From: Phreatobacter stygius
Lineage (GTDB): Bacteria; Pseudomonadota; Alphaproteobacteria; Rhizobiales; Phreatobacteraceae
Length of the DNA: 64,000 bases
Assembly (NCBI RefSeq): GCF_005144885.1
Contig: NZ_CP039690.1
Location: 6,684,873-6,748,872 of the forward strand
Direction: 5' to 3'
Shown one piece after another: positions 25,699 to 48,308 of this stretch; position 1 is the first letter of the stretch, and every line of letters begins with the position of its first letter. The position numbers and the translations under genes are program-made. Below the pieces are notes generated by a model. The model worked only from the letters and a program-made list of their open reading frames with translations. It did not search any database and was not told the DNA's origin.

Positions 25699-25846
25699 GG
25701 CCGTTCCCCTCGATGTCGGGTTGAAAGACTTTGGAAGACCTGATGGGGCGGACGGGCGGCGAACCGCCCGGCGCGTGGCCGGCGCGCCGGCTGGAGGACG
25801 CCGCGCCCGTCACGCGGGCGCGGGCAGCCGCTTGATGGCGCTGCCG

Positions 25847-29147: not shown

Positions 29148-29851
29148 AGGTCCGTTCCATAAGCGTCGACCGCCCTCAGGTCGCCCTCGCCTCGGGGGCG
29201 ACGGCAAGCCGTTGCCTCGACATCCTCGTCGCGACGACGGCGCTCCTGCTGTTCGGCCCGCTGATGCTGGTCATCGCTGTCGCGATATGGCTCGAAGGCG
29301 GCCGGCCGATCCTGTTCTCGCAGCTTCGCCTCGGCCGCGGCGGGCAGCCCTTCCGCATGTACAAGTTCCGCAAGTTCAGCGCGACATGCGGCGTCACCGG
29401 CTGTCCCTTGACCGTGGCGCAGGACAACCGGCTGACCTCGATCGGGCGGTTTCTCGCGGCCAGCAAGCTCGACGAGTTGCCCCAGCTGTGGAATGTGCTG
29501 AGGGGCGATATGGCGGTGGTCGGGCCGCGGCCCGAATCGCTGGCCTTCGCCGATTGCTTCCGCAACGGCTTCGAACGCGTTCTGGATCACAAGCCCGGGC
29601 TGCTCGGCCCGTGCCAGATCCAGTTCCGCAACGAGTGCCGGCTCTATCCGACCGACGCCGACCCGGCCAGCTTCTACCGGGATGTGCTGTTCCCGGCCAA
29701 GGCGCGCCTGGATCTCGCCTATTTCCCGCATCGCACCCTCATCTCCGACATCGGCTGGATCATTCGCGGAGTGTTTGCGGTGCTGGGCTGGGCGCCGCGG
29801 GGCGGCACCGGCGTCGCCCAAGCCCAGAACTGGCAAGCCGAGCGCCCCTGA
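29144..29851 (+). CDS. Initiating sugar transferase (bacterial sugar transferase family, PglC/WbaP type)
   Basis: Membrane-anchored phosphoglycosyl transferase of 235 residues that loads the first sugar phosphate onto undecaprenyl phosphate. One N-terminal hydrophobic hairpin (LDILVATTALLLFGPLMLVI) precedes the catalytic part: FSQLRLGRGGQPFRMYKFRK, the Asp-Glu dyad in SKLDELPQLWNVLRGDM, and VVGPRPE. It is the small PglC-like form without the extra WcaJ transmembrane domain. Translationally coupled to the aminotransferase gene. Its presence defines a lipid-linked (Wzx/Wzy) assembly route. Confidence 0.92.
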   Translation: MKVRSISVDRPQVALASGATASRCLDILVATTALLLFGPLMLVIAVAIWLEGGRPILFSQLRLGRGGQPFRMYKFRKFSATCGVTGCPLTVAQDNRLTSIGRFLAASKLDELPQLWNVLRGDMAVVGPRPESLAFADCFRNGFERVLDHKPGLLGPCQIQFRNECRLYPTDADPASFYRDVLFPAKARLDLAYFPHRTLISDIGWIIRGVFAVLGWAPRGGTGVAQAQNWQAERP

Positions 29852-29891
29852 GGCGTGGACGCTCGGACCGAAGCGAAAAGGGAAGCGCTCC

Positions 29892-30899
29892 ATGAGCTAC
29901 ACTGGCATGAAGGTTCTCGTCACCGGTGCCGATGGCTTCATCGGGTCGCATCTGACCGAGGTGCTCGTTCGCCACGGGGCCAAGGTGACGGCGCTTGCCC
30001 TGTACAATTCCTTTGATAGCCACGGCTGGCTGGACGACGTGTCGGAAGCGACCAGAAGCCAGCTCAATCTCATCCGGGGCGACGTCCGGGATGCCGCTTT
30101 CGTGGGCCGCATCGTGCAGGACCAGGAGGTGGTGTTCCACCTGGCCGCCCTGATCGCGATCCCGCATTCTTATGCCGCCGCCCAGTCCTATGTGGAGACC
30201 AACGTCCTCGGGACGCTGAACGTGCTCGAGGCGGCGCGCCAATGCGGAACGGAGCGGGTCGTCCACACGTCGACCAGCGAGGTCTACGGGACCGCGCAGA
30301 CCATGCCGATCAGCGAGACCCACCCGCTCCAGGGACAATCGCCCTATTCGGCATCCAAGATCGGCGCGGACATGATGGCGGAGGCTTTCGCCCGCTCGTT
30401 CGGCCTGCCCGCCGTCATCCTCAGGCCCTTCAATACCTTCGGTCCGCGGCAGAGCGAAAGGGCCATCATCCCGACCATCGTGCGCCAGGCGCTCGATCCG
30501 TCCTGCACCGCGATCATGGTCGGCGACACCACACCGATCCGGGATCTCACTTTCGTCGACGACACGGTCGCCGCCTTCCTGGCGGCCGGCAGCACCCCGG
30601 CCATCGAGTATGGGCGCGCCTATAATGCCGGCAGCCAGCGCGCGGTGACGGTTGCCGACCTGATCGAGCTCATTCGCGGGCTGACATCCTGCACCAAGCC
30701 GGTGAAGCAGGACGAGACGCGGATGCGGCCGGTGAACTCCGAGGTCCGGGCGCTGCTGGCCGATTGCAGCCGGTTCCGGCGCGAAACCGGATGGCGCCCC
30801 CAGACGAGCCTGCGCGACGGTCTCGAGCGGACGATCGCCTGGTGGCGCACACGCGTGTCGGAGGGCCGGGTTCGTCGTCAGAAGGACTTCATCACATGA
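29892..30899 (+). CDS. NAD-dependent sugar-nucleotide epimerase/dehydratase (LegB-like)
   Basis: Extended short-chain dehydrogenase (335 residues). NAD loop VLVTGADGFIGSHLTEVLVR, then HLAALIAIPHSY, the catalytic TSTSEVYGTAQ, YSASKIGADMMAEAF (YxxxK) and PFNTFGPRQSERAIIPTI. The arrangement is closest to LegB-type NAD-dependent 4,6-dehydratases acting on UDP-GlcNAc. UDP-glucose 4-epimerase-like activity cannot be excluded. ATG at 29892 has AAGGGAAG upstream; the frame extending to 29682 overlaps the previous gene. With the DegT enzyme it would give a 4-amino-4,6-dideoxy sugar. The stop overlaps the next start (ATGA). Confidence 0.88.
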   Translation: MSYTGMKVLVTGADGFIGSHLTEVLVRHGAKVTALALYNSFDSHGWLDDVSEATRSQLNLIRGDVRDAAFVGRIVQDQEVVFHLAALIAIPHSYAAAQSYVETNVLGTLNVLEAARQCGTERVVHTSTSEVYGTAQTMPISETHPLQGQSPYSASKIGADMMAEAFARSFGLPAVILRPFNTFGPRQSERAIIPTIVRQALDPSCTAIMVGDTTPIRDLTFVDDTVAAFLAAGSTPAIEYGRAYNAGSQRAVTVADLIELIRGLTSCTKPVKQDETRMRPVNSEVRALLADCSRFRRETGWRPQTSLRDGLERTIAWWRTRVSEGRVRRQKDFIT

Positions 30900-32170
30900 T
30901 CACCGACGGGCGCCGGCGACGATCTCAGGTATTCCTCGCGGCGGCCATCATCCTCGCGGCGTTCGCAACGGCCGGGCGCGCCGACAGCCTGGCTTCCGCG
31001 CAGCTGGTGCCGGCGATTGCCGTTCCCCTGCCGGGTTACCTGCAGGCGACCGCCGACGCCGCCTTCGGCACGCCGTTCACGCGGGTGACGCAGGCCGACG
31101 CCCATCTCGGCGCCGGGCTCCTGTGCGGCAAGGAACGCTGCCGTCATCGTTATTCCAGCGCCCAGGCCTGGAATGCCGACCAGAGCCTGCTGATCATTCC
31201 GATCGGCTGCAACGGCATGTGCTTTCTCGACGGCCGCAGCTATGCGCCACTGTTCCGGCGATGGCGATCAGGCGAATGCGAATGGCACCCCAACAATCCC
31301 GAGCAGATGATCTGCGTCTCCCGCAGCACGATCTCGATCTGGGAACCGCGCACCAATGTCGATCAGCTGCTCTATATCTCCAATGGCTATCGCGAGCTGC
31401 AGTTCGGCCCCTACAAGGGAAACCCGTCCCGGGACGGCCGGCATATCGTCATCCGGGCGGTCGCCGAAGGTGGCGGTTCCGTCGCCTTCGCTTACGACCT
31501 GGTCGCGCGCCGCAAGTATCCCGATATTCAGCTCGACCGCCTCCCGGGCCGCAACAATTCCTGCACCATCTCGCCGCTCGGCATCCATGTCGCCTGCTTC
31601 CAGCACCTGCTGATCGGCATCGACCAGGCCTTCATCTTCACCATTGACGGCCGCCTGGTGCAGAGCTGGATCGAGCACCACCGGCCGGGACATGGCGACA
31701 TGACGGTCGATGCCGACGGCAGCGAGGTCTATGTCGGGATCAGCAAGTCTCCTCCCGACCTCTACCAGGTCATCAAGCGGCGCCTGCATGACGGCGCCGT
31801 CACCGTGCTGACCGCCTATGGCGAGGCCCAGCACGCTTCCATCAGGTCGACCCGGCGCCCCGGCTGGGTGTTCCTGACCTATGGCGGGGATCCCGCCAAT
31901 GTCGCCCGCCGCCCGACCTGGGCGCCGTTCGCGCGCGAGGTGATCGCCGTGCGGATCGACGGCAGCGGCGAATTCCGGCGGGTCGTCCAGACCGCCAGCG
32001 TGCCGCACGACTATTGGAACGAGGCTCAGGCCTCGCCGTCCCCCGACGGTTCCCAGGTCATCTGGGCGAGCAATTGGGGCGTCGCCGGCGGCCCGGTCTT
32101 CGCTTTCGTCGCCCGCCTGCAGTGGCCCGCCGAAACGACCACCGCCAGCCAACCCGTGAGGGATCGTTGA
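30896..32170 (+). CDS. Secreted beta-propeller-like protein of unknown function
   Basis: A 424-residue exported protein that I cannot name. MITDGRRRRSQVFLAAAIIL begins a signal peptide ending near AGRADS; the start overlaps the LegB-like stop as ATGA. The mature part contains repeated WD/TolB-like blade patterns (NADQSLLIIPIGCNGMCFLD, SRDGRHIVIRAVAEGG, DADGSEVYVGIS, SPDGSQVIWASNWG). Eight or so cysteines are scattered through it. Similar propellers occur in TolB and in family-22 oligogalacturonate lyases. Placed between a sugar dehydratase and an export channel gene, it may bind or trim the polymer in the periplasm; that is inference. Confidence 0.7.
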   Translation: MITDGRRRRSQVFLAAAIILAAFATAGRADSLASAQLVPAIAVPLPGYLQATADAAFGTPFTRVTQADAHLGAGLLCGKERCRHRYSSAQAWNADQSLLIIPIGCNGMCFLDGRSYAPLFRRWRSGECEWHPNNPEQMICVSRSTISIWEPRTNVDQLLYISNGYRELQFGPYKGNPSRDGRHIVIRAVAEGGGSVAFAYDLVARRKYPDIQLDRLPGRNNSCTISPLGIHVACFQHLLIGIDQAFIFTIDGRLVQSWIEHHRPGHGDMTVDADGSEVYVGISKSPPDLYQVIKRRLHDGAVTVLTAYGEAQHASIRSTRRPGWVFLTYGGDPANVARRPTWAPFAREVIAVRIDGSGEFRRVVQTASVPHDYWNEAQASPSPDGSQVIWASNWGVAGGPVFAFVARLQWPAETTTASQPVRDR

Positions 32171-32171: not shown

Positions 32172-33446
32172 ATGACCCGCCACAGACATATGCTGACGCG
32201 TCCCTGGGCCCTCGCGGCGAGTGTCCTGCTGATCGGCGGGCTCGGCTGCGGCGCGCGCGCCGAGACGACCTACCGGTTGTCGCCGGGCGATATCGTCGAG
32301 ATCGGCCTGGCCGGAATGACCGAGCAGCGCCATCGCGCGGTGATCCAGCTGGACGGCACGATCGCCCTCCCCTCGGTCGGTTCGGTCGCGGTGGCCGGGC
32401 TCACGTCGGCGGAGCTGCAGACCCGCATGGAGAACCTGCTGCCGACCAAGGTGTTCCGCCGCCGCACGCCCGACGGGCGCGAGCAGATCCTGATCGTCAA
32501 GCCGGAGGACGTCACCACCTCGGTCGCCGAATACCGGCCGATCTATGTCACCGGCGACGTGCTGACGCCCGGCCAGCAGACCTACCGGCCCTTGATGACC
32601 ATCCGGCAGGCCGTGACGACCGCCGGCGGATACAGCCTGCTGCGCTCGCGCGCCACCCAGGCCGGCACCGATCCGGCCGACTTGCGGCGCGACCACGACT
32701 TGCTCTGGACCGACTATATCAGGGAGTATTTTCGCGTTCTGCGCACCCATGCCGAGCTGGCCGGCCAGGATACCTTCGACCAGACCCCGCCGAGAAACGC
32801 GCCCTTGCCTGAAACACTGATCGCCGCGATCGGCCAGGCCGAGGCGGAGGCGCTCCGGGTCGCGCAGGCCGACTACCGGTTGGAGCAGAGCTTCCTGGAC
32901 CGGGCCGCCAAGGAAACCGACGAGCAGATCGTCGTGCTCCAGCTCCGCGAACAGGAAGAGGAACGAGGCGTTCAGGCCGACATGCACGAGCTGGACCGGG
33001 TCAACCGGCTGTTCGGCAGCGGCAACCTGGTCAGCCCCCGGGTGACCGAAAGCCGGCGCTCCCTGCTGTTGTCCTCCTCCCGTCGCCTGGAAACCACCGT
33101 GCAGCTGATGCGGGCGCGCCGGCAGGTCGATGAATATCGCCGCCAGCTGGAACGGCTGACCAACCAGCGGCAGGTCACCCTGCAGCTCCTGTTGAGGGAC
33201 CTGAACGTGCGCCTCGCGGATCTCGGCGTCCGGATTCAGGCGGTCAGCGAGAAGCTCCGTCCGCTGGGCGGCGTCAGCACGATACCCGCGGTCGGCGCCA
33301 GGCTTCGCTCGGAAGTCGCCATCATGCGCAAGATCGGCGAGCAGTGGCAGCGGCTGCCGAGCCCGGAGGATGCCGAGGTGCAGCCGGGCGATGTGATCGA
33401 GGTGGCGTTCCGCGACGAGGCGACCGCGGCCTCCGCCGTCCACTGA
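32172..33446 (+). CDS. Polysaccharide export protein (ExoF-like, Poly_export/SLBB)
   Basis: Periplasmic/outer-membrane polysaccharide export protein of 424 residues, the same size and layout as rhizobial ExoF. A signal peptide (AASVLLIGGLGCGARA) is followed by a Poly_export domain (YRLSPGDIVEIGLAGM, IALPSVGSVAVAGLTSAEL) and an SLBB-type beta-grasp segment (RPIYVTGDVLTPGQQTYRPL). Then comes a long coiled-coil region (about residues 210-370, many Glu/Arg/Leu) and a closing VQPGDVIEVAF. GAGGGA stands eight bases before ATG. It should work with the Wzc/ExoP-like protein encoded at 41364-43603. Confidence 0.9.
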   Translation: MTRHRHMLTRPWALAASVLLIGGLGCGARAETTYRLSPGDIVEIGLAGMTEQRHRAVIQLDGTIALPSVGSVAVAGLTSAELQTRMENLLPTKVFRRRTPDGREQILIVKPEDVTTSVAEYRPIYVTGDVLTPGQQTYRPLMTIRQAVTTAGGYSLLRSRATQAGTDPADLRRDHDLLWTDYIREYFRVLRTHAELAGQDTFDQTPPRNAPLPETLIAAIGQAEAEALRVAQADYRLEQSFLDRAAKETDEQIVVLQLREQEEERGVQADMHELDRVNRLFGSGNLVSPRVTESRRSLLLSSSRRLETTVQLMRARRQVDEYRRQLERLTNQRQVTLQLLLRDLNVRLADLGVRIQAVSEKLRPLGGVSTIPAVGARLRSEVAIMRKIGEQWQRLPSPEDAEVQPGDVIEVAFRDEATAASAVH

Positions 33447-36025: not shown

Positions 36026-36844
36026 CTAGATCCATCTTCTGAACAGGACGTTGTCCTTGGTCAAAGACGACCCGATTTCGCGTTCAGCAATCCGCTTCTT
36101 TATTCTTTCGTCTTTCTTCATGTATATGGAATGGAATTCGACGTAGCACACATAAATATTACGATGGGCGCCATTTTTAATGATGTCGTCGAGGACATCG
36201 TATTCGGCACCCTCGATGTCCATCTTGAGAACGACGACGTCATAGGCCCTACGCTTCGCGGTGATCAGGTCGGATAGGGAAAACGTCTCGACCAGATCCG
36301 GCGCAAAGCCCTCCGGCTCATAGTAGCTGGCATTATGCTCGGGATTGATCGAGCACCCCTCGTAAACCGGCTCCTGCTGGCCCGCCGGCGGACCGAAGAG
36401 CTTGGCATAACCCTGCCTGACGCCTGCCGCCTTGCCGATGATCTCGATCCGGGCGCCGCCGTCGGCGCTCAGCGCCTTGAGATAGGGCATGCAGTTCACG
36501 TTCGGTTCGACCAGGATGTAGTCGTAGAAATCGGGGGTGTAATAGGTGCTGAAGAACTTGTAGCCCTGTCCGATATTGGATCCGCAATCGATAAAGAGGC
36601 CGCGCTGGCGTTTTCCGGTCTTGATCACGCGCATGATCCGCCGGGCGTCGGCGGCAACGGCCAGGCGGAGCCGGAGCGACCTTACCGGCTCGCACAGCGC
36701 CAGGGTCCACAGTTCCAGCAACCGCAACGGCCCATCGCGCTTCAGGACGTCGGTGCCCTGCCGCACCTTTGCCAGGAGCCTCGAGCTCAGTTGCACATGC
36801 GGCTCGACGGCCATGGCGAACCTCCGTACTCGTGACACGTCCAT
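36026..36844 (-). CDS. FkbM-family methyltransferase
   Basis: SAM-dependent O-methyltransferase of the FkbM (Methyltransf_21) family, 272 residues from ATG at 36844, which has GGAGAG about nine bases upstream. The SAM-binding motif is FIDCGSNIGQGYKFF, a second motif ILVEPNVNCMPYL, and the FkbM hallmark is VVLKMDIEGAEYDVLDDII near the C-terminus. It is the last gene of the right-hand exopolysaccharide operon, 73 bases after the NRPS-like gene. Likely targets are a sugar hydroxyl of the polymer or the acyl group handled by the NRPS-like protein. Confidence 0.88.
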   Translation of the reverse strand: MDVSRVRRFAMAVEPHVQLSSRLLAKVRQGTDVLKRDGPLRLLELWTLALCEPVRSLRLRLAVAADARRIMRVIKTGKRQRGLFIDCGSNIGQGYKFFSTYYTPDFYDYILVEPNVNCMPYLKALSADGGARIEIIGKAAGVRQGYAKLFGPPAGQQEPVYEGCSINPEHNASYYEPEGFAPDLVETFSLSDLITAKRRAYDVVVLKMDIEGAEYDVLDDIIKNGAHRNIYVCYVEFHSIYMKKDERIKKRIAEREIGSSLTKDNVLFRRWI

Positions 36845-36917
36845 GATGGCGATCTCTCCGTGATGGCTGCACCGGTTGCCGGCCGCCGCCATGAGGCGCC
36901 GCGGCGGTTCGAAAACG

Positions 36918-39824
36918 TCATGCATAGGTCGCCGCCACCGCCCCCTCGACGAGCGGACGGTTGACGGCGAGATGGGGTTCCACGACCAGATCGAGATGAC
37001 CTCCCGCGATCGCAATGACGTCGACGTCCGCGAACAGCCGGCCCCAACCGAGGTCGAACGGCACGCCGGGCCGGTTGCAGCGGAACAGGGTCCCCTTGAT
37101 CGGCAGGCACGACTTCGACAGCGCGAGCCAGTCGCCCATGGCGCGCATCCGGAGAACCTCCTCGAGTTCCAGCCTGAGCAGGAACCGCGTGTCGGGCAGA
37201 TGCTTCAACCATTCGCGTTCGAGGAGCCCGGCGAGATGCCGCTCCCAGCCGAGCCTGGCGGCGGCCTTCGCGACACTGCGACAGGCGGTCCGGTAAACCG
37301 AGACACGATGGGCCCCGATGCGCTGCACGGTCCGGGCAACGGCTTCGCGCAGGTGATGCGCCGCTCCCCCGACATTGGTGTCGAGAATGCCCAGGAACTT
37401 GACCGGACGCCCTGCGGCGAGCAGGCGCGCGGCCACCTCGAAAGCCACGGCGCCGCCCAGGGAATAGCCGAGCAGGCGTACATCGCCGCGGGGCTGGGCC
37501 AGGTTGATCTGTCGCAACGCCGCCTCGGTCATGGCCGCGATGGTTCCGCGTCCGTCGAGGATCGCGACGAGATCCGGGTAGCGGATCGGCGTGACGCGCG
37601 CGACGCGGCCCATGCCCGCGCCAAAGGCCGCCAGGCTCGGGCCATAACCCACGGATCCGGGAAGCATGAACAGAACCGGCGGCGCGCCGGTCTGCCGGTC
37701 GGCGCCGGGGCTCGCGTCCTGCCCGTCAGCGACGGCCGCGATCATGTCGGCCGCGGTCATGTCGGTCGTGAAGGCCTCCAGATCGAGCTCCCGGCCGAGC
37801 AGGGTCTCGATTTCCATGACGCATTGCAGAAGCTTCAGGGAATCACCGCCGGCCTCGTCCCAGCGCCCCGCCACATCCGCCCTGCCGAGTATTCGCTTCC
37901 ATGTGACCTCCACCGCTTGCTCGAGGTTCAGCGGCGTGCCGGCATCCGCACGCTCCGCCGGTTCGGCCGTCCCGCGCATGGCCTGATCGAGGTCGCGAAG
38001 CCTCGCGGTATCGACCTTGCCGCCGGCAAGGCGCGGGATTTCGGCGACCAGGTGCAGTCGGGTCGGATGCAGCGACGGCGGCAGCGCCCGCCTGACGATA
38101 TCCCGAAGCGCCGGGCCGAGGTCCGGCCCCGCCGTCTCTTCCGGCACGACGAAGGCAACCAGTTCGCTCGCCGCGGTCACGACCGCCACGGCGTCGCGAG
38201 CCTGGCGCGCACGACGCAGGACGATCTCCAGTTCGGCCGGCTCGACACGCCGCCCGTTGATCTTGATCTGGCGGTCCTTGCGACCGACGATCTGCAACAG
38301 TCCCCGCTCGTCGAGCTGGACCAGGTCGCCGGTCGAAAAGACGCGCTGGCGCGGATCGTCCCGGTCCGTCGTCATAGGCACGATTTGCCCGTTCTCCCAA
38401 TAGCCGAGCGTGACATGCATGCTCTTGATCAAGAGCTCGCCGCTCTGGCCAGAGCGAACCGGCGCGCCATCGTCGTCGACCACGGCAAAGCTGATGCCCG
38501 GAAGCAGGTATCCCGCCGGCACGCAGGCTGCGAGTTCGGGATAATCGACCGGCACGAACCAGTGCGAGCCGGTCGTCTCGGTCGACGAATAGCTGATCTG
38601 GATGAAACAGGATCGCGAAACGACTTTCCGGACCAGGGCTATGTCGGTCCACAGGATCTTTTCGCCGCCGATGCGGACAACCCGCAGCGATCCGAAATCA
38701 TCGTCGTCGGAAGCCGTCATCAAGGCGCGAAGCAGCGCCGGCACCAGATAGACGATCGTCACCCCGCATGACCGGAATTGCCGCCTGATGGCACGCAGAC
38801 CCACGGCCTCGACATCGGCGAGATGCAGGGTGGCGCCGACCAGCAGGGCCGTCAGCACCTCCCGGCAGCCGGCGATGGTGGCGGCTCCGCTCAAGGGCAG
38901 GAACACATCCTCGGAATTGATGTGGGCGGCATCGACATATTGCTGGACGCGCTGGAGCAGGCTGCGCTGGCTGTTGACGATGCCCTTCGGCCGCCCGGTG
39001 CTGCCGGAGGTGTAGAGCACGACGGCGGGCGCATCCACCGAGACTGCGTCGGGAAGCGTGGCGGCGGGCTGCGGATCGCCGGCGTGGAGGGCGCCCGCCA
39101 CGTCGATCCATCGCAGGTCCGGCCGTTCTGGCCAGGCGGCGAAGCCATCGGCGCCAAGGCCAATGATGGCGGGCAGACCGGCATCCCGGGCGATGTCCAG
39201 GATGCGTCGGGGCGGATCCCGGGGATTGAGCGGCACGGAGACCCTGCCGGCCGCCATGCCGGCGAGCATGGCGACGGGATACCAGCCGCAATTGCCCAGC
39301 AGCAGACCGACCGACTGCCCGGCGGGGACCGCGGCCGCGATCAGCAACGCGAGCCGCGTCACGGCCTCGGTCAACGCGCGATAGGTGAGCCGCAGATCGC
39401 CGTCGCTGATCGCCAGCTTGTCCGGATATTTCCTGGCGATCCGCCCGAGGTGGTCGACGGCGGATATCGCCGAGAAACCTTTGCCCATCGGCTCGAACGG
39501 CCACCCGATGGGCCCGCCCATATCGAGTGGCACCCGGGGCGCCGGCAACCACGCCGGCACGTCGGCTGCGCGCCTGGAACGCGGGGTGCGCGCGAGCGGT
39601 TTCTGATCCGTGTTGGCCGCGCCGGGAGGCGAACTCGCGTCGGAACGATGTTCTCTCGTCGAGCGACTTAAACCCTTCAGCATCCACCGCTCCCACATCG
39701 CAGACAGATTGGTCATAAGCGCCATTCCCACAGCCGACATCCTCTGATCAGAGGAAGCCGCCCCGGGCTTCCCGGCCGTGGCGCGCGGCCTGCAATTCGG
39801 CCCGCTTCCGCCGCTCTGGTTCAC
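36918..39824 (-). CDS. NRPS-like adenylation-carrier-thioesterase protein
   Basis: A 968-residue protein with an adenylation domain, a carrier domain and a thioesterase but no condensation domain. A-domain motifs: VVLYTSGSTGRPKGIV (A3), ISYSSTETTG (A5), RVFSTGDLVQLDERG (A7), GRKDRQIKINGRRVEPAELE (A8). The carrier site is DEAGGDSLKLL with the phosphopantetheine serine. The thioesterase has GYSLGGAVAFE and a late GGHLDL histidine. Where amino-acid-activating domains carry Asp235 my alignment gives isoleucine, so the substrate is probably not an alpha-amino acid. GTG at 39824 overlaps the wzx-like stop as GTGA, though downstream ATGs (39740, 39725) are possible. Its place among Wzx, Wzc and AsnB genes is unusual. 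Confidence 0.9.
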   Translation of the reverse strand: MNQSGGSGPNCRPRATAGKPGAASSDQRMSAVGMALMTNLSAMWERWMLKGLSRSTREHRSDASSPPGAANTDQKPLARTPRSRRAADVPAWLPAPRVPLDMGGPIGWPFEPMGKGFSAISAVDHLGRIARKYPDKLAISDGDLRLTYRALTEAVTRLALLIAAAVPAGQSVGLLLGNCGWYPVAMLAGMAAGRVSVPLNPRDPPRRILDIARDAGLPAIIGLGADGFAAWPERPDLRWIDVAGALHAGDPQPAATLPDAVSVDAPAVVLYTSGSTGRPKGIVNSQRSLLQRVQQYVDAAHINSEDVFLPLSGAATIAGCREVLTALLVGATLHLADVEAVGLRAIRRQFRSCGVTIVYLVPALLRALMTASDDDDFGSLRVVRIGGEKILWTDIALVRKVVSRSCFIQISYSSTETTGSHWFVPVDYPELAACVPAGYLLPGISFAVVDDDGAPVRSGQSGELLIKSMHVTLGYWENGQIVPMTTDRDDPRQRVFSTGDLVQLDERGLLQIVGRKDRQIKINGRRVEPAELEIVLRRARQARDAVAVVTAASELVAFVVPEETAGPDLGPALRDIVRRALPPSLHPTRLHLVAEIPRLAGGKVDTARLRDLDQAMRGTAEPAERADAGTPLNLEQAVEVTWKRILGRADVAGRWDEAGGDSLKLLQCVMEIETLLGRELDLEAFTTDMTAADMIAAVADGQDASPGADRQTGAPPVLFMLPGSVGYGPSLAAFGAGMGRVARVTPIRYPDLVAILDGRGTIAAMTEAALRQINLAQPRGDVRLLGYSLGGAVAFEVAARLLAAGRPVKFLGILDTNVGGAAHHLREAVARTVQRIGAHRVSVYRTACRSVAKAAARLGWERHLAGLLEREWLKHLPDTRFLLRLELEEVLRMRAMGDWLALSKSCLPIKGTLFRCNRPGVPFDLGWGRLFADVDVIAIAGGHLDLVVEPHLAVNRPLVEGAVAATYA

Positions 39825-41320
39825 CGCCCTGGAGGAGGAGCAAAGGCCGGCCGCGTGTCACGCTCGGCCGCCGTCTCGCGCGCCCTCGCCCGCCGCCGCG
39901 CAATGGCCGCCGCCAGTCCGGGACCGAGGCCAAGGTGCTTGCGAACGCTCACCGCCATCGTCAGGTTCCAGAACACCATGGTCGCGGTTGTCGCCACCGC
40001 CGCGCCGATCGCGCCATAGAGCGCGATGCCGATCACGCAGCCGACGATGTTCAAGCCGGCGCTTGCGATCATCGTGGTCAGGGCCGCCCGTTCATTTCCG
40101 GTCATGATCAGCATGGTCTGTTGCGGGCCCGCGGCCGCGGCGAAAACCTGGCCGATCACCAGGATCTGGACGATCGGAACGCAGCCGACGAAGTCTTGGC
40201 CGAACCACCTCAGCAGCGGCTCCAGCAGCAAGAGAAGCGGCAGCGCCAGCACCGCGGCGCCGGCCAGCGACAGGACGCTGGCGCGCGCGAAGAGCCCGCG
40301 GAGGCCCGATTGGTCACCCTGGGCGTGAAGCGCCGCCACCGTCGGCGCGAAGATGGTGCTCACCGCCACCCTCGGCAGCATGAGCAGCATCGCGAAACTG
40401 AACCCCAGGGCAAAGATGCCGGCATCCCTGATATTGCCTGTCCAGCCAAGCACGATCACGCCGCTTCGGCTGATCAGGATGTCGAGCGCCGTCATGATCA
40501 TGATCGGCAGGACCGAGGACCACCATTCTCCGATGGCGTAGGCCGGCTTCACCTGCCGCATTTCCCGCGGCCAGAACCGGAGCGCGGTCACCGCCACCAG
40601 GGCCGCCGTGCAGGCCGAGCTGACCAGTAGCGCCGCCATGACGAGTGGCGCGTCCAAGGGCTGGGAGGTCACCATCGCCGCCAGGCCGACCAGTGCCAGG
40701 AGCAGTCCGTCGCGGAAGATGCGTTCCGGAACCAGCGCCGAGACGACGCCTCCGAAGGCGCGCACCAGCGTCGCGCCAAGCATGTACATCGTGATCAGCG
40801 GCACCGCCGCCATGCCGATCAGCATGCTGGCGCGTTCCGAGGCGAAGTGTTCGGCCGATGCCGCGACGATCCCCGCACCGACCAGGGCGACCACGACGGC
40901 GGTCGCAAACGACGCCGCCAGGGCAAAGCGGATGACGCCGCGCGCCAGGCACCACTGGTCCTTGGCGCCATAGGCCGGCACGAAGCGCAGCAGGGCGACG
41001 TTAAATCCGAGCGTCGAGCTGTAGCCCAGCAGCGTGATCCAGGCGAACACGTAGGAATAGACGCCGAAGCCCGAGACACCGATGAGCCAGGCAATCTGGA
41101 GCTGCGCCAGGGTGGTCAGCGCCGCGCCGCCGACATAGACGACAAGGGCCCAGACACTGGCATTCGACAGCCGCTGGGCCAGTTCGCGGCTTTCGACAGC
41201 AGCGGCCGGGGCGGCATCACCGAGGGCCGCGGCAATCGGTTCCTCGGGCGACACGGCAGCGGTCGCGCGCTCGTCGGCGCGCCGTTCCTGGTTCTCGGAG
41301 GCCTTGGCGTCCGACATCAT
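39821..41320 (-). CDS. Wzx-type polysaccharide flippase (MOP superfamily)
   Basis: Inner-membrane protein of 499 residues with about 12-14 hydrophobic segments, typical of O-unit flippases that turn lipid-linked repeat units to the periplasmic face. The N-terminal 45 residues are charged and cytoplasmic (QERRADERATAAVSPEE). Membrane segments start at VWALVVYVGGAALTTLAQL. FGVYSYVFAWITLLGYSSTL and AYGAKDQ resemble the polysaccharide-synthesis family, and GNERAALTTMIASAGLNIVG the C-terminal half. GGAGGG precedes the first of two tandem ATGs. The stop is coupled to the NRPS-like gene. Confidence 0.9.
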   Translation of the reverse strand: MMSDAKASENQERRADERATAAVSPEEPIAAALGDAAPAAAVESRELAQRLSNASVWALVVYVGGAALTTLAQLQIAWLIGVSGFGVYSYVFAWITLLGYSSTLGFNVALLRFVPAYGAKDQWCLARGVIRFALAASFATAVVVALVGAGIVAASAEHFASERASMLIGMAAVPLITMYMLGATLVRAFGGVVSALVPERIFRDGLLLALVGLAAMVTSQPLDAPLVMAALLVSSACTAALVAVTALRFWPREMRQVKPAYAIGEWWSSVLPIMIMTALDILISRSGVIVLGWTGNIRDAGIFALGFSFAMLLMLPRVAVSTIFAPTVAALHAQGDQSGLRGLFARASVLSLAGAAVLALPLLLLLEPLLRWFGQDFVGCVPIVQILVIGQVFAAAAGPQQTMLIMTGNERAALTTMIASAGLNIVGCVIGIALYGAIGAAVATTATMVFWNLTMAVSVRKHLGLGPGLAAAIARRRARARETAAERDTRPAFAPPPGR

Positions 41321-41363: not shown

Positions 41364-43603
41364 TCAGGGGGCTGCGGATGTCTCCGCGCCGAACCAAGGG
41401 TCGCTTTCGGCATCGACCCAGGTCAGCACCGATGCCACCCGCGAAGCCCCGTCAGGATCGAAACCGGCGGTGCCGCTGACGAGCCGCAGCGCATTCTGCG
41501 CGGTTTCCCGGTAGGTCGCCTTGCAACGCACCGCGAACAACACCTTGTCGGCCCAGCTCGCCAGCAGGCTCGCCTCCGGCCGGTCGGCCAAAGGCGGCGC
41601 ATCGACGATGATGAGGTCATAGGCTTCCCGAAACTGGTCCAGCCATGGCGAGATCCGAGAACCGGCCAGGACGTGGAACAGGCCACCCAGCCGCGACGCG
41701 GGAATGTAGTCGACCTTGAGTTCGGGGATGCGCTCGACGGCGTCGGAAAGCGGGCCGCCGCCCGCGATCAATGCGGCGAGATCGACGCCGGGCACCGCCA
41801 GGTTGCGGCCCGCGCGGATTTCCCCTTCGAGCGCCGAGGGCTGGCCGCCAAGGTTGAGCAGCAGCACACGCATCCGGAAACGCGCGGCCAGGATCGCGAG
41901 GCTCCAGGCCAGCGTCGTCTTGCCTTCGCCGGGCAGCGACGAGGTGACGAGTATGACCTTGGACTCGGTGCCAGTCGTGTTCGGGGAAAGCAGCGAGACC
42001 AGCAAGGCGCGAACCGCCCGCGCATAGGCCGCCTGCTGTTCGTCCTGCAACAGATCCTGAATGCGCATCGTCTGCCACTGGGCGACCGCCGGCATCGTCG
42101 CCAGGCACGGCACGCCGAGCGCCGCGACAGCCTCGTCTTCGTCTCGGATGGTGCGGTTGAGCCGATCCAGGGCGAAGGCGAGCAGGACGCCCATGATGCC
42201 GAAGGCAACCACCGCCGGTGGAACAAAAAACGCCGGGTGGATCGAACTCGGCCGCTCCGGAGGCCAGGCCTCGGCCAGAAGTCGTGCATCCGGCTGGACG
42301 AACTGGACCTGCTCGTTCGCCTCCTGCTGGCGCCGCAGCAGCGCATCGAAGAGCTGGACCACCGCGGCGGCCTGACGCTCCAGCGCCCGCAATCCCGACA
42401 TGCCGGCGGCGGTTTCGGTCGCGGCGCCCTTGAGCGGCTGCAGGCGCTCCTCGATGGATTTGGTCTGGGCCCGGTAGATCCGCGCCTCGCTCTCCAACCT
42501 GGCCACGGAGCGGTCGATCTCCTGCCGAATGGCGAGATCCAGATTGCGCCGCTGCTCCGTCCCGGCCTCCTGGCCGGAGCCGGCAAGGCTGAGTTCGCGA
42601 CGGCCAAGGTCGGCGAGCACCGCCGATCCGATGGCTTCCGCCAGGGCACTTGTCGGCGCGCCGCGCGCACGCAAGTCCTGGATCCGGCCGAGCCGTTCCT
42701 GCACCGCCAGGGCTTCCGATCCGGCGACCGCCAGTTGCCGCGCCAGTTGTGCAATCTGCTGCCCGGTTTCATCGGGATTTCCCGCGGCGGCCACGCCCTG
42801 AACCAGTCGGTAGGCCTCCAGGTCCTGCTCGGCCCGCGCCACCTCTTGCCGCATCTCGGGGATGCGCCTGGCGAGCCAGCTGGCGAGACGCTCGGCTTCG
42901 ATTCGCTTTTGCAGCCCGATATCCTGCAGATGGACCTGCACCACCATGTTCGCGATGACCGCCGCCCGATGCGGCTCGGCCCCTGCATATGAGACCGAGA
43001 CGATCCTCGAACGGCGCTCCTGAACGACCCTCAGGTTCCGCTTGATCGCCTTGGCCAGGGCGTTCGTGGCCGCCTCGGCGTCCGGCTCTTGATCGCTGCG
43101 GCGGAACGGCTGGGTCAGCGCCGACCAAACCGTGCCGAGACCCTGGCCGATACGCTGGCTCCAGGAGGGCGGCCCGGGATCCGCGGGGCCTGGGCGGCGT
43201 CCTCGGCCAGCAGGGCGGCGGCGACCCGCCGCAAGAGCGCGTCGGAAGTAAGCACCGTCACATGAGTGTCGATGGCCGCCTCCTCCACCGCCATCGTGAC
43301 CGGGGTTCTGGCATTCGTCGCTTCGAGCGGACGCTGGTCGACGATGACCTGGGCTATCGCCGTATAGCTCGGCCGCGACAGAAGGCCGGCCATGATGGCG
43401 ACGACACCGCCAAGCGCCACCATGGTCAGGATCAACACCTTCCATGTCCGCAAGAGACGGATGACGCGCCAGAATGACAGATGCCCGTCGGCGGTTTCAC
43501 CACCTGGGCGTCCGCCCCGCGCGGTCGGGTCGAATGCAAGCAGGTTCGACGATCGCACCGCCGCGACAACCCGCCTGCCCTTGCCGGTCAGCGCTTCCAT
43601 CAT
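41364..43603 (-). pseudogene. Wzc/ExoP-like chain-length determinant, split by a frameshift
   Basis: Polysaccharide co-polymerase with a Wzz domain and a tyrosine-autokinase-like ATPase, needed for polymer length and export. Two frames make up one protein. The first runs from ATG at 43603 (MMEALTGKG) through a first membrane segment (VLILTMVALGGVVAIMAGLL) to about LLAEDAAQAPRIPG. The second continues from about PGPPSWSQRIGQG to the stop at 41364. The switch lies in 43140-43200, in the G/C runs around GGCCCGGGATCCGCGGGG, and fits loss of one base. The second part has long coiled coils, a second membrane segment (VVAFGIMGVLLAFAL), Walker A VTSSLPGEGKTTLAWSLA and Walker B DLIIVDAPP. The A' motif reads VLLLNLGGQP without its aspartate and there is no C-terminal tyrosine cluster. 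The start overlaps the asnB stop (TGATG). It is either a sequencing error or a true mutation. Confidence 0.82.
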
Positions 43604-45597
43604 CAGCTCCCTTGCAGGATGGGTTCGAGTTGATTGATCGGCCCGGCGGCACCGGGCGCGGTGCTTTCGTCGAGCCAGGCCTCGAGCATCAGCACCGCCC
43701 AAAGCACGCGCGAATGGTCGCGCCTGCCGCTCAGATGCTCCTGCCAGCAGGATCGGACGGCCACCGGTTCGAGGAGATCGTGACGCCTGAGCCGCGCCGC
43801 CGTCAGAAGGTCCTCGGCCCAGGCGCGCAAGGGCCCCTTCAGCCATGCGCCGACCGGCACGTCGAAGCCCTGTTTGGGCCGCTCGAAGAGCGCCCGGGGA
43901 ACATAGCGGGCCAGCACCTGGCGGAGGATCCACTTGCCTTGGCCGTGGCGCACCTTGGCAGCGGTCGGCAGGCGCCAGGCGAACTCGATGATGCGATGAT
44001 CGAGGAGCGGGCAGCGCGCCTCGAGACTTGTCGCCATGCTGGCCCGGTCGAGCTTGACGAGAATGTCGTCCGGCAGATAGCCCGCCATGTCCCGGAAGAT
44101 CAGTTCGGACACCAGGTCGTCGAGCGGCGGAGCATCGGCTTCGGCAGGTCCGGCATCCCGTGCCAGGCAAAGGCTGGAGAGCCGCGTCAGCCGCCGGTAC
44201 ATGTCCCGGGTGTCGTCAGCCGCCAGCAGCTCGGCCAGGCGGCGCAGGCGGTCGCCGCCAATGGCGCGCCGCAGCGCGTTCGGCAGCGGCAGCTTGTCGA
44301 CGATCCACGCGCTGGTGCCGCCGGCCATATGGTCGAGCGCCGCGGCCGCCGTCCGACGCATGCGCGAAGGCCCCCTCAGGAGGGGTGCCAGCCGCGCGGC
44401 GAGGAAATGGCGCGAGTAACCGGCGAAACACTCGTCGCCGCCGTCGCCCGACAGGGCCACGGTCACGTCGGTGCGGGCCAGCCGCGAGACCAGCAATGTC
44501 GGAATCTGCGACTCGTCGGCGAACGGCTCGTCCCAGATCCGCGGCAACTCGGGAATGACGGTCCGGGCCTCGGCGGGCGACAGGCGCAGCTCGGTATGAT
44601 CGGTCCCCAGGTGGCGGGCGATCCGGCCGGCATCCACCGACTCGTCATAGCCGCGCTCCCCGAAGGCGATCGTGAAGGTTCTGACCGGCCGGTTCGCCTG
44701 CGCCTGCATGAGCGCGACGACGGTGGAGCTGTCGATGCCGCCGGACAGGAAGGCACCAAGGGGAACGTCCGCGACCATCCGCTCGCCCACGGCGAGCCGG
44801 AGCAAGCCGTCCAGTTCGGCAACCATGTCGCCATCGTCGAGGGCGCAGGGATCCCGCCTGCCCCGCTCGGCCACGGCGGCCAGGGACCACCATCGGCTGA
44901 TCCGCGCCTTCAGCGACGCCGTGTCGGCCGGCCCGGCGATATCGGCGGCGCTCAACGACAGCATCGCCCCGGGCGGCAGCTTGAACACGTCGTTCCAGAT
45001 GCACAGGTCATCAGGAACGCAGCCGCGGGCCAGCATGGCGGCGACCGCTCGCCGGTCGATCTCCGGCCGGAAATGCGGCAAGGTACGCAGGGCTTTCAGC
45101 TCGGAGGCGAACACCAGGGCTCCCGGCAGGCGCGCCACATAAAGCGGCTTCTTGCCGATCCTGTCGCGGGCCAGGTGGAGGACGCGCGCCGCGCGATCCC
45201 AGAGAGCGAAGGCGAACATGCCCGAGAACCGCTGGAGCGCCGGCTCCAGGCCCCAGCATTCGATCGCGGCCAGCATCACCTCGGTATCGCTGCCGCCGCG
45301 AAAACCATGGCCGAGGCTTTCCAGCTCCCGGCGCAGCGCGCCGAAATTATAGACCTCGCCGTTGAATGTGATGATCAGCCGGCCATTGGCGGACCGCATG
45401 GGCTGGCGCCCGGCGTCCGACAGGTCGACGATGGCAAGACGCCGGTGGCCCAGCGCGATGCCGGCGTCGCTGTCGCTCCAGATCCCGTCGCCATCCGGCC
45501 CGCGATGGCGGAGCAAAGCCATCATCGGCCCGATCGCATCCAGGCTGAGCGCCTCGGAGGCGTTGGCGGCGAGAACGATTCCAGCGATTCCGCACAT
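43603..45597 (-). CDS. Asparagine synthase-type glutamine amidotransferase (AsnB/WbpS-like)
   Basis: A 664-residue class-II amidotransferase: N-terminal nucleophile cysteine directly after Met (MCGIAGIVLA), RHRGPDGDGIW, FNGEVYNF and SDTEVMLAAIE in the glutaminase half. The synthetase half has the ATP loop LGAFLSGGIDSSTVVALM, VALSGDGGDECFAGYSRHF and PDDILVKLDRASMATSLEAR. All expected active-site residues seem present. In polysaccharide loci such enzymes (WbpS type) are thought to amidate uronic acids. With ugd in the same locus that is a reasonable guess, as is amidation of a carrier-bound acid. ATG at 45597 was fixed by Cys2; the longer frame to 45657 is rejected. Confidence 0.93.
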   Translation of the reverse strand: MCGIAGIVLAANASEALSLDAIGPMMALLRHRGPDGDGIWSDSDAGIALGHRRLAIVDLSDAGRQPMRSANGRLIITFNGEVYNFGALRRELESLGHGFRGGSDTEVMLAAIECWGLEPALQRFSGMFAFALWDRAARVLHLARDRIGKKPLYVARLPGALVFASELKALRTLPHFRPEIDRRAVAAMLARGCVPDDLCIWNDVFKLPPGAMLSLSAADIAGPADTASLKARISRWWSLAAVAERGRRDPCALDDGDMVAELDGLLRLAVGERMVADVPLGAFLSGGIDSSTVVALMQAQANRPVRTFTIAFGERGYDESVDAGRIARHLGTDHTELRLSPAEARTVIPELPRIWDEPFADESQIPTLLVSRLARTDVTVALSGDGGDECFAGYSRHFLAARLAPLLRGPSRMRRTAAAALDHMAGGTSAWIVDKLPLPNALRRAIGGDRLRRLAELLAADDTRDMYRRLTRLSSLCLARDAGPAEADAPPLDDLVSELIFRDMAGYLPDDILVKLDRASMATSLEARCPLLDHRIIEFAWRLPTAAKVRHGQGKWILRQVLARYVPRALFERPKQGFDVPVGAWLKGPLRAWAEDLLTAARLRRHDLLEPVAVRSCWQEHLSGRRDHSRVLWAVLMLEAWLDESTAPGAAGPINQLEPILQGS

Positions 45598-45601
45598 TCC
45601 A

Positions 45602-46855
45602 TCACCTCCCGTAACGCGCACGCACCATCGGCGCTCGCGCGCATCCCTCGGCCACACAAAGGGCGATGGCGAACCAGAAGATCGGATGGCGAAAGATGAA
45701 GTGGCTGATGCCGAACAGCGCGAGAACGCCGATCACCGCCGCCAATGCATCGAGCCGCGCACGCAGGACCAGGATGAGCGTGCCGACGATGAGCCAACCG
45801 AAGGCGACAACCGCGATCAGCCCCCCTTGGATGTACAGGTCGAGGAGCGTGTTATGCGCCTCGAAGGGCATCGGAAGGGACTGCATGTTCGGTATGTTCG
45901 GACGATCGAGATGGGGGCCCGGTCCAAGGCCGAGCGAGCCGGTTTCCAGCCCCCTCCGCAGCGCGCCCTGCCAGACATCCAATCGCAGATTGGCTGTCTG
46001 CATGGTCGCATCCCCGCCCTTGTCCTTGGTCAGGCTCAGGGCGAAGCTTTCGACCTCGTCGGCCACGGCGACCGCGTAGGGCAGCAGCGCGATCGCTGAG
46101 AGAGGTGCTGCCAGGACGATGAAGATGGCTGCCGCGTAACGCAGGCTGCGCGATGACGCCGCCATCCAGGTGCGGACCTGCAGGCCAACCAGCAGCGCAC
46201 CGGAGCACAGCATGGCCAGCAGGAAGGTGTCGCTCTTGGTCAGGCGGCCGACGACGAGCGGCATGACGGCGCCGGCGAAACCGGCGATCCGGCCGATCGC
46301 CTTGTCGGCGGTCATTCCCAGGTGGATGGCGACGGGGCCCATCACCGCGCAATAGAGCGCGGTCTGGTTCGGGTTCTCCGACCAGCCACGGAAGCGATCC
46401 CAGTACCAGGGGCTCAGCGTCCCCGAACCGAGCATCCCCCAGCCCACGGCAACCTGGAACGCCAGGCCCGCATTCGCGAAAGCGATCAGCAGCCAGGCAA
46501 TCTGCCGCAGGCGCGCATCGCCATCCGGCTCGGCGGTGGCGAGGCAGGTCAGCATCGCCATGAGCAGATAGGCGGTCGCATCATGCGTCACGGTGCTGAA
46601 GTCGATTTCCCTGTCGGTGAGAAAGCTGACGACCGCACCAATGCTCAGGGCGAGCGCGAAGAGCATCCAGAACATGCCCAGCCGGCGCAGCGATTGGTTT
46701 GCCGCGACGCGGCCCCAGATGAAGATGCGCGAGATCGAGAGGCCGATCCACAACGCCAGACAAATCTCGCCAGCTCCGACCGGCACGCCGGGGATCCTCA
46801 GCTGCGACGCCGACGACAGCACCACTCCGGCGGCCAGGATCGCGTTGCGGATCAT
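45602..46855 (-). CDS. Wzy/O-antigen ligase-family polymerase
   Basis: Inner-membrane protein of 417 residues with about ten hydrophobic segments and a large periplasmic loop before the last ones, the layout of Wzy polymerases and WaaL ligases. The loop carries RLDVWQGALRRGLETGSLGL and GPGPHLDRPNIPN, then FEAHNTLLDLYIQGGLIAVV, where HN-x3-D resembles the conserved ligase/polymerase histidine block. DRFRGWSENPNQTALY is also typical. Start overlaps the stop of the GT4 gene (ATGA). Since Wzx and a PglC-type initiator are present, polymerase is the likelier role. Confidence 0.87.
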   Translation of the reverse strand: MIRNAILAAGVVLSSASQLRIPGVPVGAGEICLALWIGLSISRIFIWGRVAANQSLRRLGMFWMLFALALSIGAVVSFLTDREIDFSTVTHDATAYLLMAMLTCLATAEPDGDARLRQIAWLLIAFANAGLAFQVAVGWGMLGSGTLSPWYWDRFRGWSENPNQTALYCAVMGPVAIHLGMTADKAIGRIAGFAGAVMPLVVGRLTKSDTFLLAMLCSGALLVGLQVRTWMAASSRSLRYAAAIFIVLAAPLSAIALLPYAVAVADEVESFALSLTKDKGGDATMQTANLRLDVWQGALRRGLETGSLGLGPGPHLDRPNIPNMQSLPMPFEAHNTLLDLYIQGGLIAVVAFGWLIVGTLILVLRARLDALAAVIGVLALFGISHFIFRHPIFWFAIALCVAEGCARAPMVRARYGR

Positions 46856-48078
46856 TCCGGTTCTCCGCTCGGTCGACGGTGCGCCCCACCATCGCCAGCC
46901 AGCGCCGGCCGGGATGACGGCTCCGCCTGAGTCGGCTGGAAGCGCTCGCCCAGAATCTGCCGGTAGAGATCGCTATATTGCTCGACGACGACGCCGAGCC
47001 TGAACTCGCGCCGCACCAGTGCGACCGAGCGGCGGCCCATCGCCCGGGCGCCACCGCGGTCGTGCAGCAGGTCGAGAATGCGCGCGGCCAGGGCGCGCGG
47101 GTCGCGGGGCGGCACGAGATAGCCGTTCCAGGCGTCGGTCACCACGTCGTTGCAGCCGGGCATCTGCGTCGCGACGATGGGGAGCCCGGCAAGCCCGGCC
47201 TCCAGGAGGACGCGCGGAATGCCCTCCCGATATTCCGTCGGCAGGACGAACAGGTCGGCCATGTCGAGCAGAGCCGGCACGTCGGACCGCGCGCCGAGCA
47301 CGACGACCTGAGGCGCCAGGCGATCGATGGCGGCCTGGTCGATCGCGAACGGGCCTTCGCTTTGCCGCGGGCCGACGAGCAGGAAACGGGCCTCGGGCCG
47401 CACCTGCCTGACCAGCGAAACCGCCTCCAGCAGGGTGGGAATCCCCTTCTCCCGCGTCAACCGGCTGACTGTCATGACGATCGGGGCGTCGCCGAGGCCA
47501 AGTTGCTGGCGCAGCGCCGCCGGTGACGGGCCGCGGGCACGCACCCTCTCAAAGGCGTCGATGTCGATGCCCGAACTGCGGATGAGATGAGCGCGACTGT
47601 TTCCGAGAAGGCGGTAGCGTTCGAAATAGGCCTTGTCCTCCGTGTTCTGGAAGACCGTTGACGCGGTCCAGTGGGATGCCCCCCATTGGAGCGCGCAATA
47701 GGCCGGCCTGAGAGCCCGCGCCCGCAGGCCATTCGAGGAGAACACCCAGCCCATTCCGTTGATGGTGCGCACCACCGGCACGGCGCCGCGCACCGCGAAC
47801 GGCGCCAGGAGGTTCGGCTTGGTGTCGAAGCTCTGGACGATATCCGGCTTGACCTCGGCAATCACACGGGCGAGCTGGCCGATGGCCGCCAGATCGGCGC
47901 CGCGGCTGTCGAACCGGTCGAAATGATAGGTTCGGTGGGCGAGGCCGGCACTTGAAAAGGCAGTCCCGTCGCCGCTCGACGCCGCTGACACGTGGAAGCC
48001 GCGATCGCGCAACTCGCCGAGAAACGGAATTCTGAGCGCGTGGTCTTCTCCCCCCACGCAGAGCAGATGCGGCAGCAT
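46852..48078 (-). CDS. Family 4 glycosyltransferase
   Basis: GT-B glycosyltransferase of 408 residues. N-terminal acceptor domain starts MLPHLLCVGGEDHALRIPFL, with VKPDIVQSFDTKPNLLAPF. The C-terminal donor domain has IVMTVSRLTREKGIPTLLEA, FLLVGPRQSEGP, and the GT4 E-x7-E motif in EYREGIPRVLLEAGLAGLP. ATG at 48078 has GGGAGG eight bases upstream. The frame continuing to 48267 adds an unlikely proline/arginine-rich leader. It is the only conventional glycosyltransferase in the locus apart from the initiating enzyme, so either the repeat unit is short or other transferases are encoded elsewhere. Confidence 0.9.
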   Translation of the reverse strand: MLPHLLCVGGEDHALRIPFLGELRDRGFHVSAASSGDGTAFSSAGLAHRTYHFDRFDSRGADLAAIGQLARVIAEVKPDIVQSFDTKPNLLAPFAVRGAVPVVRTINGMGWVFSSNGLRARALRPAYCALQWGASHWTASTVFQNTEDKAYFERYRLLGNSRAHLIRSSGIDIDAFERVRARGPSPAALRQQLGLGDAPIVMTVSRLTREKGIPTLLEAVSLVRQVRPEARFLLVGPRQSEGPFAIDQAAIDRLAPQVVVLGARSDVPALLDMADLFVLPTEYREGIPRVLLEAGLAGLPIVATQMPGCNDVVTDAWNGYLVPPRDPRALAARILDLLHDRGGARAMGRRSVALVRREFRLGVVVEQYSDLYRQILGERFQPTQAEPSSRPALAGDGGAHRRPSGEPE

Positions 48079-48308
48079 TTGTTGCGCCTCCCGACAGGCA
48101 CCGGGCCCCGCCGGGAATGGCCCCGGGGGAGCGAGCGCCGGGCCGGATCGCGCGGCTGCCGGCTCTCGCCGGCTTGTCGTCGATCCATCGCCCGCGCATG
48201 ACCAGCCATCACGGTATGAAGCGATGCCGGCTCTGTCCTCATTCGTTCGAATGACGGTGGGGGGCATTTCGAAACGCCGGGGCAGTCGGGCATCCGGCCC
48301 GACCGTCC

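Follow-up and report, generated by a model that had tools for sequence, protein, structure and literature searches.

An adenylation-carrier-thioesterase protein encoded with a Wzx/Wzy polysaccharide locus of Phreatobacter stygius and its non-canonical substrate pocket

A stretch of 64,000 nucleotides from the single-contig 7.35 Mb genome of Phreatobacter stygius (G000:C1:6684873-6748872, hereafter the window) encodes a free-standing protein, ATTE, in which an adenylation (A) domain, a carrier (T) domain and a thioesterase (TE) follow one another. Its gene lies among genes for a polysaccharide of the Wzx/Wzy type, and the pocket of its A domain differs from that of alpha-amino-acid-activating domains. 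We propose that ATTE is a dedicated enzyme of one conserved Wzx/Wzy locus, that it activates an acid other than an alpha-amino acid, and that the TE either releases this acid or places it on the repeat unit of the polymer. The probability of this reading is put at roughly 0.45. Decorations set the behaviour of secreted polymers in biofilms and with plant hosts, and the enzymes known to produce unusual acyl decorations are, to our knowledge, few. The locus is present in some soil and root-nodule bacteria, where its own acid-activating enzyme may give the polymer an uncommon chemical group. As it occurs in Mesorhizobium (YC-39), a genus open to genetics, the substrate and the change in the polymer are directly testable.

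Architecture of ATTE and its membership of the polysaccharide locus

A first-pass annotation of this DNA had described intact adenylation, phosphopantetheine and thioesterase motifs and no condensation domain, and both Pfam searches and motif inspection agree with it. AMP-binding (residues 129-476, E 2.6e-61), PP-binding (639-698, 22.1 bits, cut-off 20.8) and Thioesterase (718-817, 52.8 bits, cut-off 26.4) were matched in the order of the termination modules of nonribosomal peptide synthetases (NRPS). AMP-binding_C reached only 20.9 bits, below its cut-off of 24.5, and no Pfam match to a condensation domain was obtained. The A domain has the motif YTSGSTGRPKG and Lys603, the carrier has GGDSL with Ser662, and the TE has GYSLGG with Ser788, together with Asp815 and His943, which are invariant in a five-sequence alignment. 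Judged by these motifs, the architecture is A-T-TE and the catalytic motifs are intact. As the AlphaFold model, with a mean pLDDT of only 60.7, was too weak for a pocket model, it was used for the fold alone; the modelled fold matches the terminal NRPS modules EntF, AB3403 and SrfA-C.

The ATTE gene lies in a run of minus-strand genes in the order LuxR-GT4-Wzy-AsnB-Wzc-Wzx-ATTE-FkbM, where GT4 is a family 4 glycosyltransferase. Co-occurrence was scored in an order sample of 397 genomes drawn from a larger group. The best 2 candidates per genome were scored for ATTE and AsnB (5 for the NadE-like protein described below), and extra copies may be missed; the gaps separating close from distant scores of AsnB and ATTE were set after the lists were seen, and relatedness is uncorrected. 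Close ATTE genes (at least 982 bits), that is, the window gene and twelve others with 54-67% identity, number 13 in 12 of the 397 genomes (5 genera, 4 families). The AsnB of the locus (at least 868 bits) was found in exactly these 12 genomes and in none of the 385 others, the next best AsnB scoring 663 bits. Within the genus, 4 of the 12 species have both close genes and 8 have neither. On the basis of the same-strand cluster and the 12/12 co-occurrence with the locus AsnB, ATTE is, as judged from sequence, part of the polysaccharide locus. This agrees with the earlier placement of ATTE behind the AsnB, Wzy, Wzc and Wzx genes.

GT4, Wzy, AsnB and Wzc are found in a contiguous stretch with at least one ATTE in 13 genomes, namely the 12 and Mesorhizobium sp. 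YC-39 (G777). ATTE comes after Wzx in the window and in G005, G011 and G239; in G298, which gave no match to the window Wzx, it follows Wzc. An acyltransferase gene (Acyl_transf_3) lies between Wzx and ATTE in G003. ATTE is divergent from GT4 in G078, G143, G308 and G370, and heads another operon in G213, G232 and G777. Translational coupling of ATTE to Wzx had been claimed, and the GTG of ATTE indeed overlaps the Wzx stop codon (GTGA). Close homologues align to the ATTE open reading frame (ORF) only from residues 50 to 91 onward, so that an internal start is possible and the coupling becomes at best possible. As a conserved feature it is not supported, since the adjacency is kept in only part of the homologues.

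A phosphopantetheinyl transferase (PF01648) is encoded in 12/12 ATTE genomes. No phage relatives were found at E<=1e-40. Two related glycoside-hydrolase-like proteins, recognized by eye and without a Pfam match over cut-off, are encoded at L127:16825-17589 and 19906-21189; their relatives lie near ATTE in G003, G078, G143, G239, G298, G308, G777 and on the plasmid of Mesorhizobium AR07.

The substrate pocket of ATTE

Pocket residues were assigned in GrsA numbering as given in excerpts of PMC11253843, and the A domains of 23 of 24 loci (L001-L008 and L021-L036, L030 being left out) served as controls. The Asp235 position corresponds to Ile317 of the ATTE ORF both in a hidden Markov model (HMM) alignment to LgrA A domains and in a multiple alignment, which confirms the isoleucine seen earlier by visual alignment. 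The window code reads I235 A236 R239 Y278 R299 G301 S322 G330 S331 K517, and that of the close copies I A R Y R G/A S/G/A G S/T/A K. The alignment therefore gives a non-canonical code, and not the canonical amino-acid code that the first-pass annotation had named as contrary to its proposal. Where alpha-amino-acid A domains have Asp235, all 14 intact close copies have Ile. Ile235, Arg239 and Arg299 are kept together in these 14 copies and in 3/3 plasmid copies read; Arg at 239 or 299 occurs in none of the 23 controls. Three more distant ATTEs of other polysaccharide loci keep Arg239, and have Arg, Arg and Lys at 299 and Ile, Ile and Val at 235. The proline of YGPTE (A5) is replaced in all close copies and plasmid copies, the motif reading YSSTE, or YLSTE in G298 and pMLb. 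These features support a pocket of a type other than the alpha-amino-acid one.

In StsA, a keto-acid A domain of solved structure, Ile stands in place of Asp235, and Met in place of a proline that amino-acid domains conserve (excerpts of PMC11253843); on our reading this would be the A5 proline. The Arg pair, the loss of Asp and proline and the parallels with keto-acid domains together point to an acidic keto or dicarboxylic acid as the putative substrate.

ATTE could instead be a keto-acid synthetase of the quinone or furanone type, like RalA and the fungal A-T-TE enzymes, in which the TE joins two keto acids; the diffusible product would then be co-regulated with the polysaccharide. The architecture and size are the same (HapA1 has 964 residues, excerpts of PMC10316625), and the first code residue of ATTE is hydrophobic. 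One pocket is also found in three kinds of context, including a plasmid copy without polysaccharide genes, and aldo/keto reductase genes lie near three ATTE copies. In quinone synthetases, the keto acid's distal group is correlated with residue 299 (code position 5) but not strictly determined by it (excerpts of PMC10316625). ATTE has Arg at this position (Arg384 of the ORF), and not the Ile, Val or Asn associated with aryl-pyruvates, which speaks against an arylpyruvate. The strict co-inheritance with the polysaccharide locus in 12/12 genomes of the order sample also argues against this alternative, which is considered unlikely.

Genes of the locus and relatives of ATTE elsewhere

The genes of the locus are listed in Table 1. 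The locus AsnB probably starts at residue 21 (MCGI), and its glutaminase Cys is present. The FkbM methyltransferase gene downstream of ATTE was absent from the first-pass list of neighbours. Other FkbM-family genes adjoin ATTE in L010 and in M. japonicum pMLb; the window's own type was found in the window alone among the mapped loci. Sugar and export genes on the plus strand face the ATTE operon. With a polyprenyl-phosphate sugar-1-phosphate transferase (PGT), Wzx, Wzy, Wzc and Wza all present, the locus is of the Wzx/Wzy type, the Wzx-like matches being below the Pfam cut-off. The sugar genes fit a predicted 4-amino-4,6-dideoxy sugar as the first residue, with model scores below cut-off.

Table 1. 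Coordinates of ATTE and of the genes of its locus, as positions in the window (NDP, nucleoside diphosphate)
Feature	Position	Strand	Basis and remarks
ATTE (A-T-TE protein)	39824 down to 36918	(-)	968 aa, GTG start
ATTE domain limits (residues)	A ~92-610; carrier ~634-700; TE ~712-968		Pfam, motifs, alignment, fold
FkbM-family methyltransferase	36026..37015	(-)	Pfam; overlaps ATTE 3' end, real start probably later
Wzx-like flippase	39821..41320	(-)	Polysacc_synt and MatE, both under Pfam cut-off; matched in several homologous loci
Wzc-like chain-length regulator / AAA ATPase	41364..43445	(-)	profile matches; present in homologous loci
AsnB-type glutamine amidotransferase	43603..45657	(-)	Asn_synthase 2.3e-113
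Wzy-type polymerase / O-antigen ligase family	45602..46855	(-)	Wzy_C 35.2 bits, cut-off 31.7
GT4 glycosyltransferase	46852..48267	(-)	Pfam; 60-73% identity across homologous loci
LuxR-type regulator	48309..49115	(-)	GerE 68.2 bits
DegT/PseC/LegC-like NDP-sugar 4-aminotransferase	28011..29147	(+)	Pfam; PseC 303.9 bits, cut-off 423.5
Short PGT	29144..29851	(+)	Bac_transf 2e-47
LegB-like NDP-sugar 4,6-dehydratase	29682..30899	(+)	TIGR04180 403.7 bits, cut-off 475; start probably ~29859
Secreted protein, beta-propeller type by eye	30764..32170	(+)	no Pfam match; probably starts after 30764; kept beside sugar genes
Wza-like polysaccharide export protein	32172..33446	(+)	Poly_export 6.9e-15

The ORF at 30764-32170 was considered as the acyltransferase and rejected, its sequence resembling a secreted beta-propeller by eye. 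The ORF at 24364-25743 (+), once used as a locus marker, resembles an antisense ORF, and nothing is therefore drawn from it. A scan for promoters and terminators gave no more sites than shuffled sequence. Beyond the LuxR end of the operon lies a two-partner secretion (TPS) pair (50487-60388, minus strand), in which 50487-52316 encodes an FhaC/ShlB-type transporter and 52277-60388 a TPS protein of 2703 aa that contains nine MBG_2 stretches. Outside the locus, the window encodes one more AMP-binding protein (18185-19894, plus strand), a weak match of 75.5 bits without a carrier or TE match.

ATTE also occurs in a second form. An intact copy precedes genes for a NadE-like protein (NadE2), a second AsnB (AsnB2), an acyl-CoA ligase and an acyl carrier protein (ACP) in G308, G213, G232 and L009/G777; in G308 this copy is on a different contig from the polysaccharide genes. 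The ligase is near TIGR03098 (475.8 bits, cut-off 592.35). In G005, G011, G239 and G298 the gene before NadE2 retains the TE, without the A domain and without the GGDS serine of the carrier. The window's own genome holds a paralogue (G000:C1:548940-551123, L043) in which the A domain is decayed, its P-loop and core motifs being altered and its C-terminal part lost, the carrier is gone and the TE is intact; it heads NadE-like, AsnB, ligase and ACP genes. Both forms coexist in 6 genomes, five of which keep only the TE of the second form intact, while G308 has both copies intact. Decay of A and T and not of the TE in the second locus, when the first holds ATTE, fits a shared pathway. In the A tree and in the TE tree the two forms fall on opposite sides of one branch. 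The suggestion that the ATTE carrier replaces a lost free-standing ACP of the NadE2 operon was refuted, as an ACP follows the ligase in 8/8 operon-bearing ATTE genomes and in G777.

These findings raise the alternative that ATTE feeds the ligase-ACP-AsnB-NadE-like pathway by making or releasing a carrier-bound amidated acid, the polysaccharide locus being just one of its homes. Intact ATTE heads that operon in the four genomes named, and five more retain the TE there. Close-type NadE2 (at least 519 bits) was found in 8 of the 397 genomes, each of which also has ATTE. Malonamyl starters are a precedent for carrier-bound acids being amidated by AsnB-type enzymes. Against it, NadE2 is absent from four ATTE genomes (G003, G078, G143 and G370), so that ATTE is also found without it, and NadE2 relatives (375.8-435.5 bits) are present in 21 further genomes without close ATTE. 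The alternative is judged improbable. In 11 loci of such relatives, each from a different one of the 21 genomes, the ligase was matched in all 11 and AsnB2 in 10; a carrier ORF with DSTG was found by pattern in 10 and through a search in the eleventh (L120, G215). As an observation in its own right, the AsnB-ACP-ligase-NadE-like gene set recurs in many Hyphomicrobiales genomes (L111-L121), its NadE-like protein being distinct from the longer NadE found in most genomes searched. A literature search for this recurrent set gave no description.

Four plasmid records carry a close ATTE (50-57% identity), and three of them were opened; the locus AsnB had no match on the four at E<=1e-150. In M. japonicum pMLb, ATTE is beside an annotated FkbM methyltransferase, a family 2 glycosyltransferase and a lipopolysaccharide biosynthesis protein. 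The Mesorhizobium AR07 plasmid has the NadE2 form, with a frame that continues past the TE end. On B. elkanii pUSDA76 the copy is surrounded by transposases, together with genes of the aldo/keto reductase, SnoaL-like and BKACE types. Among more distant relatives, those of L010, L011 and G328 belong to another polysaccharide locus, which also encodes a GH16-flippase protein, GT4, Wzy and PGT. The L012 relative is flanked by a glutamine synthetase and, across from it, by an ORF that has a GT4-like match; two G751 copies lie among mixed genes, one near an Asn_synthase protein. The context scan covered distant relatives other than those of G654, G358 and G403. BKACE (beta-keto acid cleavage) genes near ATTE were noted at L010:8200-9111 (Beijerinckia, from Pfam) and L128:15762-16535 (pUSDA76, from annotation), and are possibly a hint at the acid used. 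URO-D-family genes were noted at L013:11589-12635 (a Synechococcus metagenome-assembled genome) and L094:12521-13534 (G429).

Proposed role of ATTE and comparison with known systems

In the role proposed here, the A domain would adenylate a small carboxylic acid, most likely an acidic alpha-keto or dicarboxylic one, and load it onto the attached carrier; the TE would release the loaded acid or transfer it to the polymer repeat unit. A candidate acceptor would be the free 4-amino group of the sugar produced by the LegB-like dehydratase and the PseC/LegC-like aminotransferase, which the short PGT would put on the lipid carrier. The comparison with a PglD-type acetyltransferase, which would act on the sugar amine, is taken from the Pgl pathway. 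In the window genes scanned, which did not include every ORF, no such enzyme was found, and this makes a free 4-amino group plausible as acceptor. A possible role of the AsnB inherited with ATTE is amidation of the same acid or of a uronic acid in the polymer. A more specific version, in which the TE would acylate the initiating sugar at its 4-amino group ahead of flipping and AsnB would amidate the far carboxylate, would constitute a further route of glycopolymer acylation beside Dlt and Alm; it has a low probability in our estimate. If true, the polymer would carry a keto- or amido-acyl group, and we know of no group of this kind in exopolysaccharides.

Several observations weigh against the proposal that ATTE serves the polysaccharide. 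No clear acyltransferase was seen in the window locus, and a second PF01648 match is present in only 8/12 ATTE genomes. The pUSDA76 copy has no polysaccharide genes nearby in its (incomplete) gene table. A distant ATTE in G400 adjoins two-partner secretion genes, and those of L013 (an A-domain protein only) and G429 adjoin a URO-D gene. As distant relatives adjoin unrelated genes, the wider family extends beyond polysaccharide loci, to which the close family appears from its gene neighbourhoods to be mostly confined. Homologues lying mostly outside polysaccharide loci had been named beforehand as contrary to the proposal; this was not seen for the close family (13 genomes).

In the pocket, too, Ile at 235 occurs in 1/23 controls, and Val, Leu or Ile in 7/23; the YGPTE proline is also missing in 14/23, many of them acyl-CoA-ligase-like. 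Because of these counts, loss of Asp and proline is taken as a general mark of domains without an amino-acid pocket, and the Arg pair as the special feature. In McyG, residue 235 is Val, yet the substrate is Phe (excerpts of PMC11253843), so that a hydrophobic 235 does not exclude an amino acid. The earlier claim of a substrate other than an alpha-amino acid gains support from the non-canonical pocket of 14/14 copies; the hydrophobic residue at 235 from which it was drawn is by itself no proof.

The tolerance of McyG to loss of Asp235 would allow an unusual amino acid with its amino group elsewhere, the aminoacyl group decorating the polymer in the fashion of Dlt and Alm, which modify surface polymers through A enzymes (excerpts of PMC11253843). 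In ATTE, however, the A5 proline is also lost. DltA retains Asp. The same is true of AlmE and of the beta-amino-acid domain VinN (excerpts of PMC11253843), and such a substrate is very unlikely.

Carrier-based acylation of glycopolymers and A-T-TE enzymes acting on keto acids are already known. A conserved A-T-TE protein that has such a pocket and is a constant component of a Wzx/Wzy locus, or any A-T-TE protein in a polysaccharide locus, was not described among the literature matches listed, the scope being mostly outside subscription journals. The window AsnB, GT4, PGT, Wzc and Wza match models linked to the XrtA/PEP-CTERM exopolysaccharide loci, all below cut-off (AsnB against the XrtA-type amidotransferase TIGR03108, 548.5 bits, cut-off 816.9), and an acyl-CoA ligase (TIGR03098) is assigned to that system in NCBIfam. 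An exosortase-type locus was rejected, as exosortase PF09721 was found in 0/12 ATTE genomes. With the termination modules EntF and SrfA-C, which also have a condensation domain, ATTE shares the folds and order of A, T and TE; it differs in lacking that domain, in its non-canonical pocket and in having no NRPS module among the neighbours scanned.

The A-T-TE keto-acid synthetases (fungal quinone synthetases, bacterial RalA and EchA) have the same domain order without a condensation domain. Position 235 is likewise hydrophobic, Ile in ATTE and Val in excerpts of PMC10316625, as it is aliphatic in the seven controls. They differ at 299, which in the fungal enzymes is Ile, Val or Asn (same excerpts) whereas ATTE has Arg239 and Arg299, and ATTE sits in a polysaccharide locus.

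A parallel in function would be Dlt (D-alanylation of teichoic acid) and Alm (glycylation of Vibrio lipopolysaccharide), in which a small acid is loaded by an adenylation enzyme with its carrier and ends up on a surface glycopolymer or lipid; at the ATTE locus adenylation and carrier domains are likewise encoded with glycopolymer genes. Dlt and Alm have separate A and carrier proteins and dedicated acyltransferases, whereas no dedicated acyltransferase was seen among the window genes scanned. Their acid is an amino acid held through an Asp contact, in contrast to ATTE, a single A-T-TE chain with Ile at 235.

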